Shown: positions 5,248 through 8,052 of the stretch, in pieces
Layout: every line of letters starts with the position of its first letter
How positions within the stretch are numbered: the first letter of the stretch is position 1
From: Hadesarchaea archaeon
GTDB taxonomy: Archaea; Hadarchaeota; Hadarchaeia; Hadarchaeales; Hadarchaeaceae
Length of the DNA stretch: 33,703 bases
Assembly (NCBI GenBank): GCA_030616305.1
Contig: JAUWXQ010000003.1
Coordinates: 1 to 33,703 of the forward strand
Reading direction: 5' to 3'
The notes under the pieces: model-generated
Databases searched by the model: none
What the model was told of the DNA's origin: nothing
Seen by the model: only the letters and a program-made list of their open reading frames with translations
Translations under genes and position numbers: made by a program

Positions 5248-6399
5248 TCAAGCATGCAGCTCTACTATGTCCTTATCGTGAAGCACGTAAGTTCGGGGCA
5301 CCTGCTGTCCTGGAAACCTTCCTGATCCCCAGACCCGTGCGAATTTGAAACTCTTCTCGAAATCCCTGTGCACTGCTCGTGCCACTTGAAGAACCGTGGA
5401 CCCTTTTGGCAGGACGAGCGGGCGTTTGGCGGGCCCTTCATCTGGACGCTTCGTGTACACGCGGATGAGATCAAGATTCTCGTAAATTGATTTTTTGAGT
5501 CCTCCTCCAGTATCCTCTATCGTGATGATTCGGAAAAGAGTCCCGAACTTGCTCTCCAATAGCTTCAGCTTCTCAGTGGCCTCCGGGAGGTTGTACTTGG
5601 TGAGCACGATAAAGGCGCGGCGGTATACAATGGATTCGCCAAGAACTTCCTCGATTTCCTCTCTCGTAACCGGCTCCTCCACGACTACGAAAGCGTTGGG
5701 GACGCGACGATCGTGTAGGATGCGCTTGATTTCCGCCTCGCCGCCCTCCACCATCTCAACCCCCCTAATCTCGATTCCTCCCGTTGGCCGACGCTGGATG
5801 GTGATTTTGGGTGACCGTTGGTTGAGCCTTATGCCTACTGCACCAAGTTCATCGACTAAGGTTTGAACCTGCTGTAACGCGCCGGCGGAGGCGTCGATAA
5901 CAAGGGCAATGGCGTCTGCGTTTCGGGCTGCGCTGAGAGGCTGCGCCCCGAGCCCCTTGCCAAGGCTCGAACCCTCAACAATGGCGGGCACCTCAACGAG
6001 CTGAACCTGCACATCCTCGAACTGCATCATTCCGGGCACAGGCTCCCGGGTGGTGAACGGGTAGTCTGCTACCTCGGGGCAAGCGCTTGAAAGCTTTCGC
6101 AGTAGCCACGACTTTCCTGAGTTGGGCATCCCCACAAGAGCTACTTGCGCTGCACCCTCCTTCTTGACCGCAAAACTTGGACCGCCTCCTCTGCCTACTC
6201 TGCGCTCACGCCTCTCCTGCAACTCACTTCGGAGCTTGGCTAGGCGCCGCTTGAGGGTCTTGAGGAGCTTTTCAGTTCCTTTGTGCTTTGGGGCGACGCG
6301 AATGAGTTCCTCTGTCGCTAGGATTCGCTCTTCCAAAGTGCGCGCCTGATGGTAGCGTTCTTCAGCTTTGAAATACTCTGGTGGTAGATTGGCGGGCAT
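5248..6399 (-). CDS. OBG/DRG-type GTPase with C-terminal TGS domain
   Basis: G1 VALVGMPNSGKSWLL, DYPFTTREPVPGMM, C-terminal TGS-like region LVLPKGSTVLQVARAVHRDFEKSFKFARVWGSGRFPGQQVPRTYVLHDKDIVELHA. Confidence 0.9.
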   Translation of the reverse strand: MPANLPPEYFKAEERYHQARTLEERILATEELIRVAPKHKGTEKLLKTLKRRLAKLRSELQERRERRVGRGGGPSFAVKKEGAAQVALVGMPNSGKSWLLRKLSSACPEVADYPFTTREPVPGMMQFEDVQVQLVEVPAIVEGSSLGKGLGAQPLSAARNADAIALVIDASAGALQQVQTLVDELGAVGIRLNQRSPKITIQRRPTGGIEIRGVEMVEGGEAEIKRILHDRRVPNAFVVVEEPVTREEIEEVLGESIVYRRAFIVLTKYNLPEATEKLKLLESKFGTLFRIITIEDTGGGLKKSIYENLDLIRVYTKRPDEGPAKRPLVLPKGSTVLQVARAVHRDFEKSFKFARVWGSGRFPGQQVPRTYVLHDKDIVELHA

Positions 6400-6536: not shown

Positions 6537-6563
6537 CTCCACTTTTGAAATATCTCCACTTTT
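6537..6563 (+). repeat. Direct repeat CTCCACTTTT x2 (6537-6546, 6554-6563) upstream of the ncRNA TATA box
   Basis: Exact 10-bp repeat, 17 bp start to start, ending about 10 bp before the TATA element. Confidence 0.6.
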
Positions 6564-6571
6564 AAAAAAAT

Positions 6572-6580
6572 CTATAAATA
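6572..6580 (+). promoter_or_regulatory. Archaeal TATA box (CTATAAATA) for the candidate ncRNA
   Basis: AAAAAAATCTATAAATAG lies about 25-28 bp upstream of the start of the structured region (about 6601). Confidence 0.7.
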
Positions 6581-6600
6581 GAGTAACCGTGCCAAGTAGA

Positions 6601-6842
6601 GATTGGCGGGAACCGAAGCCCGCAGAGGAGGTCGAACCGGAGTCTACGGACAACGGGGAGCCGCGTGAAAACCCGGGCGAAAAACCGGGGAAGAATGCGG
6701 ATAACCTTCGTGGTGGAACGAAGGAAGACACCGACTGTGGGAAAAAGATCCTAACCAGAAAAAGACAACGAGCTAGCGAAGTGGTCGAGATTTGCGAACT
6801 CGTTGAAGGAGTAAGAGAAGGATCGAAGTTCCCGCCTTTTTT
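6601..6842 (+). ncRNA. Candidate independent structured ncRNA, family not recognised
   Basis: Closing helix 6605-6613 GGCGGGAAC / 6828-6836 GTTCCCGCC (9 bp perfect). Internal helices: 6637-6639/6654-6656 plus 6642-6644/6649-6651 capped by UACG; 6661-6666/6695-6700 plus 6672-6676/6685-6689; 6705-6710/6719-6724; 6747-6752/6819-6824; 6766-6772/6799-6805. T6 follows at 6837-6842. Confidence 0.75.
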
Positions 6843-6846
6843 ATTT
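6837..6846 (+). terminator. T-tract terminator (TTTTTTATTT) directly after the ncRNA closing stem
   Basis: Six T's directly 3' of the long-range stem, typical of archaeal U-tract termination. Confidence 0.6.
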
Positions 6847-8052
6847 AACGCTAAGCAAACCACGTACGTATTTCATGACCCGTTTCACTCCGAGTTCCTG
6901 GAGAAGCCCAGGTAGCTCAGCCGCGAGAGCGCGAATCAAACTACCATGATGGTCAAAATCGAAGTTCTCAAGCACGAGTTTCTTCACGCTATCCTTTTTC
7001 AGGATCCCGAGGGTGGTGTTCAAGTCCTCATCCGACATCATCTCGAAGACCCTCCGGGCACGGACTCCCAGCTCAAATTCCCGGCCGAACTTCTCCTTGA
7101 CCATTTGATCATAAATCCGAAGCGTCTTCTCATCGGGTTCCGCTTCTAGACCTCGTGTAGCCACTTCAGCCGCAAATTTCGCGCACGAGAGCCCGATGTA
7201 GATTCCCCCGCCTGTGAGTGGTTTGACGTGGGCAGCAGCGTCTCCAACCAACAACACTCTGTTGGTATATGGCTTGCGCGAGAACGGCTCTGGGATGAGG
7301 CCAGTACAGATTTCGAGCGTCCTCACTTTTTCAACCTTTTTGGATATCACGAGGTGTTTTTCGAGGAAGAAACGTAGCATTTGGAGCGGGTTCCCTTCAG
7401 TGGTGCCAAGGCCCACCCTACAGACATCGCCTGCTTGGACGAGCCAGCCGAAGAAGCCGGGAGCAAACGAGCGGCCCAGATAAACTTCAGCTGCGTCCGC
7501 TCGGGCTTCTGCTATGACCTCTACTTGGGCACACTTGAGATACCGCTCGGATTTTAACAGACCGGCCTTCCGAGCGACGATGGAACTCGGACCGTCTGCA
7601 CCTATCACCAAGCGTGCGTTGATCTCTCCCGTATGAGTGCCCCTAATCTTCACAATCGAGTCACGACCGATCTTTACATCGACGCACCTGTTCTTGAGAA
7701 GCAATGTAGCCCCGGCACTCGCGGCCTCCCGCGCGAGGACGCGGTCGAATTCAGCACGATTGATTACAAATGCTTCAACTTTTTCCCTGGTAAGTTCGAT
7801 TGGTTCGTTGGAAGGGGGATAAATTACGGCGCGGCGAAGCTTCCCCAGCACCCAGCTCCCTGGTTTAATCCCCAGCTCCTCGAACCCTCCCACGCCGACT
7901 ATTCCTGCACAACAAGCTGGATTTCCCACTTCACCGTGTTCCTCCACCACTACAACATCAAACCCACGCTTCGCTAGGCTCCCGCCGACGAAGCATCCCG
8001 CGGGGCCGCCACCCACTATCACAACGTCGGCACGCACTTCCACACCTCGCAC
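6841..8052 (-). CDS. Geranylgeranyl reductase family FAD-dependent oxidoreductase
   Basis: ADVVIVGGGPAGCFVGGSLAKRGFDVVVVEE, CCAGIVG, LVIGADGPSSIVARKAGL, LLVGDAAAHVKPLTGGGIYIGLSCA. Confidence 0.9.
   Translation of the reverse strand: MRGVEVRADVVIVGGGPAGCFVGGSLAKRGFDVVVVEEHGEVGNPACCAGIVGVGGFEELGIKPGSWVLGKLRRAVIYPPSNEPIELTREKVEAFVINRAEFDRVLAREAASAGATLLLKNRCVDVKIGRDSIVKIRGTHTGEINARLVIGADGPSSIVARKAGLLKSERYLKCAQVEVIAEARADAAEVYLGRSFAPGFFGWLVQAGDVCRVGLGTTEGNPLQMLRFFLEKHLVISKKVEKVRTLEICTGLIPEPFSRKPYTNRVLLVGDAAAHVKPLTGGGIYIGLSCAKFAAEVATRGLEAEPDEKTLRIYDQMVKEKFGREFELGVRARRVFEMMSDEDLNTTLGILKKDSVKKLVLENFDFDHHGSLIRALAAELPGLLQELGVKRVMKYVRGLLSVK

Follow-up and report, generated by a model that had tools for sequence, protein, structure and literature searches.

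A family of structured non-coding RNAs in Hadarchaeota without a match in Rfam

An RNA gene between two conserved protein genes

Hadarchaeota are archaea of the deep subsurface and of hot springs. The window analyzed here is a stretch of 33,703 nt from a Hadesarchaea genome (assembly GCA_030616305.1, contig JAUWXQ010000003.1), and coordinates without a further label refer to it. Two open reading frames on the minus strand frame the region of interest. The upstream, divergent neighbor (5248-6399, syntenic partner c9) encodes a DRG/Obg-like GTPase, and the convergent neighbor (6841-8052, syntenic partner c1) a geranylgeranyl-reductase-like FAD protein; the names of these and all other neighboring proteins were read by eye from the translations. 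Between them, on the plus strand, lies a gene for a structured non-coding RNA at 6603-6838, which is matched by the covariance model R1 with 243 bits. The predicted transcript spans about 6603-6842.

The preliminary description of this DNA had proposed a TATA box at 6572-6580, and the sequence CTATAAATA is indeed present there. A TATA-like box is found about 25-30 nt 5′ of the first helix of the RNA, P1, in nearly all copies of the family. P1 had likewise been recognized correctly: its 5′ strand GGCGGGAAC (6605-6613) pairs perfectly over 9 bp with its 3′ strand GTTCCCGCC (6828-6836), and a terminator-like T6 tract follows directly at 6837-6842. T-rich tracts 3′ of P1 were observed at most copies. 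Transcription would start from the RNA's own TATA promoter and end at the T tract right after the closing helix.

An additional element, TTGAAATATCTCCACTTTT, lies further upstream on the plus strand at 6546-6564, about 40-60 nt 5′ of the RNA start. At the same position relatives have the near-palindrome TTGGAAATATNTCCA, which is common to most copies at two of the conserved loci described below, A and B. The exact palindrome occurs at RNA promoters of four genomes (G005, G007, G010 and G012), and its remaining three matches are located inside genes. Because all other exact matches are intragenic, the palindrome may be the site of a regulator dedicated to these RNAs. A wider regulon under its control was rejected for the same reason, the positions having been judged by eye.

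Predicted fold and conserved core

The 243-nt stretch containing the RNA has a minimum free energy of -96.9 kcal/mol, compared with -68.2 +/- 4.5 kcal/mol for dinucleotide-shuffled sequences (z = -6.3), and none of 200 shuffles was as good. The RNA would fold into a three-way junction, in which P1 closes the molecule, P2 bears three hairpins, and P3 forms a long arm. P2, the 5′ strand of which spans 6619-6633, consists of the pairings 6619-6625/6735-6741, 6628/6732 and 6631-6633/6727-6729. It was absent from the helices listed originally and makes a single domain of three hairpins in the 5′ part. These are H1 (6637-6656, with a UACG or UAAG loop and a GA/AA internal loop), H2 (6661-6700, 6 bp plus 5 bp, with a conserved A-rich/GGAAGG internal loop) and H3 (6705-6724, six pairs). 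The junction AAAAA between P2 and P3 (6742-6746) is largely conserved across all paralogue classes. The P3 arm (6747-6824) is built from the pairings 6747-6751/6820-6824, 6755-6756/6815-6816, 6766-6772/6799-6805 and 6776-6783/6790-6795, and contains an internal motif in which GAAAA (6758-6762) is opposite AGUA (6810-6813). All features named in this paragraph are on the plus strand. The hairpins that had been proposed at 6637-6656, 6661-6700, 6705-6724, 6747-6824 and 6766-6805 all reappear both in the minimum free energy structure and in the RNAalifold consensus of 35 homologues.

Near-invariant unpaired nucleotides were found at the junctions (about 6616-6618 and 6742-6746), at AAA 6669-6671 and in the GAAAA/AGUA motif of P3, while variation of the RNA is concentrated in the sequence of the helices and in distal P3. 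Invariant unpaired nucleotides together with variable helices are typical of RNAs whose binding or active core is conserved. The conserved core of this RNA is probably its binding or active surface. The GAAAA/AGUA pair, present in all classes, resembles a loop-E (S-turn) motif and is a candidate for one.

The clustering of highly conserved, purine-rich unpaired nucleotides at the junctions, together with the constant length and the candidate loop-E-like motif in all classes, would also fit a ribozyme or a ligand-binding RNA that acts in trans and has no obligatory protein partner. However, protein-binding RNAs fit the same pattern, and we regard an RNA of this kind as quite unlikely. Slightly more room, if still on the unlikely side, is left for a broader reading, namely a lineage-specific RNA with a catalytic or ligand-sensing activity of its own (a new ribozyme, or a new kind of ribonucleoprotein or RNA-only complex) that serves a central process of Hadarchaeota and has several specialized paralogues in each cell.

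Covariation supports the structure and a non-coding nature

The RNAalifold consensus of 35 sequences from loci A and B contains 59 base pairs, 39 of which show compensatory changes. Changes on both sides were seen in 39 pairs, compared with 24.5 in shuffles and 9-14 in controls with slid partners. Similarly, 98.4% of the cells were paired, compared with 86.8% in shuffles and 32-43% with the partners slid. Since these very sequences had also served to derive the structure, the slid control has a partial bias, and a tree-based test is the stronger one. For this a home-made, R-scape-like procedure was used on alignments that had not been fitted to the structure: a G statistic with APC was compared with a null in which Fitch-inferred substitutions were redistributed along a FastTree tree. 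When the pairs of the structure were tested, the A/B set yielded 10 significant pairs out of 59 and the set of all classes 15 out of 59, and there were none outside the structure. When all column pairs of the A/B set were tested, three passed, every one of them in the structure.

The support is distributed over the molecule. P1 contains compensatory changes, and its pair 6606/6835 is significant with all classes. Both sides have changed in 8 of the 11 pairs of P2 and in all six pairs of H3. In H2, the pairs 6666/6695 and 6673/6688 covary significantly, and the P3 pair 6777/6794 is the strongest covarying pair of the A/B set. In addition, the paralogue classes C and D, each folded alone, yielded the same layout of P1, P2, H1-H3 and P3 with compensatory changes of their own.

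Two open reading frames overlap the RNA in the window, one of 108 codons on the plus strand and one of 110 on the minus strand, and both are open there, as a protein-coding gene would be. However, homologues have stop codons in the matching frame and scattered indels, and the covariation follows the helices. The 108-aa frame is broken by stops in most homologues, and a coding gene was rejected; its probability is practically negligible. Both comparative tests that had been suggested for the RNA at the outset, compensatory changes in homologues and a codon pattern in the 108-aa frame, therefore spoke for a structured non-coding RNA: the former were present and the orthologous frame was interrupted.

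Distribution and paralogues

A blastn search of 60 relatives revealed homologues with 70-87% identity, often two per genome. With the covariance model, the RNA was found in 19 of the 22 genomes that represent the window's family and in 3 of 4 genomes of a sister family, all genomes surveyed being incomplete MAGs. Over these searches together, homologues were found in 21 relatives (E values down to 1e-77), which makes 22 genomes when the window's own is counted. The number of copies per genome ranged from 1 to 5 and was mostly 2-5. Divergent paralogues, which are shorter at about 206-223 nt, were also detected with the model. The genome of the window has three copies, the one in the window (contig C51) and two others at C4:1327-1556 and C45:6789-6999. 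Three weak R1 matches (L098, L099 and L100, E about 0.001-0.004) were judged unlikely to be homologous and excluded.

No match was obtained in 367 further archaeal genomes, which lie outside both families and the close kin covered by those runs, under stricter filters that can lose weak matches. A degenerate core pattern was scanned by exact matching against 85,462 bacterial and archaeal genomes and matched 31 contigs. Thirty of these carry the titles Hadesarchaea, Hadarchaeum or 'Hodarchaeaceae', and the remaining one, titled 'uncultured archaeon', is from a genome of the sister family f3. The title 'Hodarchaeaceae' was given by the submitters to two MAGs (Yes49-31 and Yes71-22) that are members of the window's own family. 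Among 2.9 million viral contigs the core pattern had no match, and a viral origin was rejected on this ground.

In the tree, copies cluster according to their class and mostly their locus rather than their genome of origin, which indicates that the paralogues predate the genera. One locus, L040 (G003:C30), has a very divergent copy at 2084-2306 on a long branch of the tree, together with a partial copy at the contig end; the divergent copy is possibly decaying or newly specialized. The genus g8, represented by two genomes of 90-95% completeness, has no member of the family.

Conserved loci and the question of a cis-acting role

The copies occupy three conserved syntenic places, A, B and D, with unrelated neighbors, plus a few other spots. 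Locus A, that of the window, lies between the DRG-type GTPase gene and the geranylgeranyl-reductase-like gene, and the downstream gene is antisense. In genus g6 it holds two tandem copies, one of class C and one of class A (L005:1209-1415 and 1499-1733; also L009, L012, L013 and L014). In genus g8 the site is empty: the GTPase gene comes directly after the reductase gene, at a distance of a few tens of bases and with no RNA in between, which shows that the RNA is a discrete unit. Locus D is near genes for glutamine synthetase and an aldehyde ferredoxin oxidoreductase, and the next gene is antisense at most D copies. Locus B precedes the gene for a family B DNA polymerase on the same strand in both families, with 29-60 nt between the RNA and this gene.

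The arrangement at locus B is what would be expected of a cis-regulatory leader, a riboswitch or attenuator of a neighboring gene such as that of DNA polymerase B, and a T tract lies between the RNA and the polymerase gene. However, a sense gene directly downstream was found at B only, whereas locus A and the majority of D copies are followed by an antisense gene. Furthermore, in several genera a TATA-like sequence, ACTTTTATC, is located between the RNA and the polymerase start, suggestive of a separate promoter for the polymerase, and polymerase genes that lack the RNA exist (G001 and G022). Because two of the three syntenic places are not upstream of a co-oriented gene, a leader is very unlikely as an explanation of the family. 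The RNA may nevertheless have a local role at locus B, given that the DNA polymerase B gene follows it at a distance of 30-60 nt in several genera.

Comparison with known RNAs

Rfam was the one curated RNA catalogue used for comparison. The window had no match at the gathering thresholds, and at E<=10 only a chance-level match to a eukaryotic lncRNA. Of the paralogue classes C and D, searched at E<=10, one gave a single chance-level match and the other none, and 17 loci with copies had no match at the gathering thresholds. Judged from these sequence searches, the family matches no known RNA family and is new to Rfam, and the earlier suggestion of an independent structured RNA of a possibly new class is supported by this result together with more than 30 homologues, strong covariation, promoter and terminator positions that are conserved at most copies, and non-coding behavior.

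Divergent archaeal RNAs may score under the Rfam thresholds, and we asked whether the RNA could be a diverged member of a known family such as RNase P RNA, SRP RNA, a 6S-like RNA or a C/D or H/ACA guide. However, classes A, C and D gave nothing meaningful even at E<=10, and these genomes encode their RNase P and SRP RNAs elsewhere, as genes of their own, in agreement with the initial inspection by eye, in which signatures of neither had been found. The RNase P RNA (RF00373) of the window's genome lies at G000:C48:17290-17577, and neither a match to this model nor the CR-I/CR-V P4 motifs were found in the window. Of 28 genomes searched for SRP RNA, 25 have it at another place, and it was not found in G000 (90% complete); the window contains neither a match to the archaeal model RF01857 nor the domain IV motif. 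No Rfam match to a guide RNA was obtained either, and C or D boxes and an ACA tail were not seen by eye. Taken as a whole, membership in a known family is highly improbable. Like the window RNA, the RNAs of RF00373 and RF01857 are independent, stable, multi-helix molecules of similar size (the models have 288 and 317 positions), whereas the window family is multi-copy. A guide RNA of an RNA-guided nuclease is also not favored, since both ends are paired in P1, so that a free guide segment is lacking, and since a nuclease of this type was not recognized beside the copies.

The structured RNAs raiA, OLE, ROOL and GOLLD were found via comparative genomics. Like the window RNA, they are independently encoded and ornate, have an unclear function and were found by covariation, but they are bacterial and have other sizes and folds, and the window RNA has no Rfam match. 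In PMC12286853, OLE, ROOL and GOLLD are described as forming homo-oligomeric RNA complexes. The 104 candidate structured RNAs that PMC2864571 describes from bacterial, archaeal and metagenomic sequences are the same kind of discovery; in comparison with the Rfam families, the window RNA had no match. The literature searched yielded no paper in which an RNA of this kind is connected with Hadesarchaea or Hadarchaeota.

A probable trans-acting RNA

With a covarying structure, a non-coding nature, and a promoter and terminator recognized by sequence, the gene has the features of an independent structured non-coding RNA. We consider it probable, at roughly 0.7, that the family is an undescribed Hadarchaeota family of independently transcribed structured RNAs that act in trans, most likely as the core of a ribonucleoprotein. 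The unrelated neighbors and the antisense downstream gene at locus A favor a trans-acting RNA over a leader. The RNA would act from several loci and could be a housekeeping-type RNA in the general style of RNase P or SRP RNA. However, it is unlikely to be essential throughout the family, given the range of 1-5 copies and the absence from g8.

Large RNAs that combine strong covariation and several paralogues per genome with a lack of known relatives are rare. This one, which the searches revealed only in a lineage of largely uncultured archaea, would be an additional RNA gene family for archaeal biology. The covariance model and alignment are a concrete resource for annotation, and the RNA is a target for in vitro biochemistry even if the organisms cannot be grown.

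Other sequences upstream of DNA polymerase B

In genus g8, other GC-rich sequences with paired ends, which are mutually unlike, occupy the position immediately 5′ of DNA polymerase B (L152:1321-1467, and the minus strand of L150). They read GGCGGGGAGG..CCTCCCCGCC (147 nt) and GGCGGAGGCG..CGCCTCCGCC (about 215 nt), and had no covariance model match with the filters off. Furthermore, a conserved GC-rich element of about 70 nt, GGGGYGRY..CAAGCTGGCTGGGAC..CACCCC, was observed in G009, G013 and G003 (L152:1203-1273, and the minus strands of L150 and L156). It had no Rfam match in L150 or L152. In G009 and G013 it lies upstream of DNA polymerase B, and it is possibly a further small RNA.
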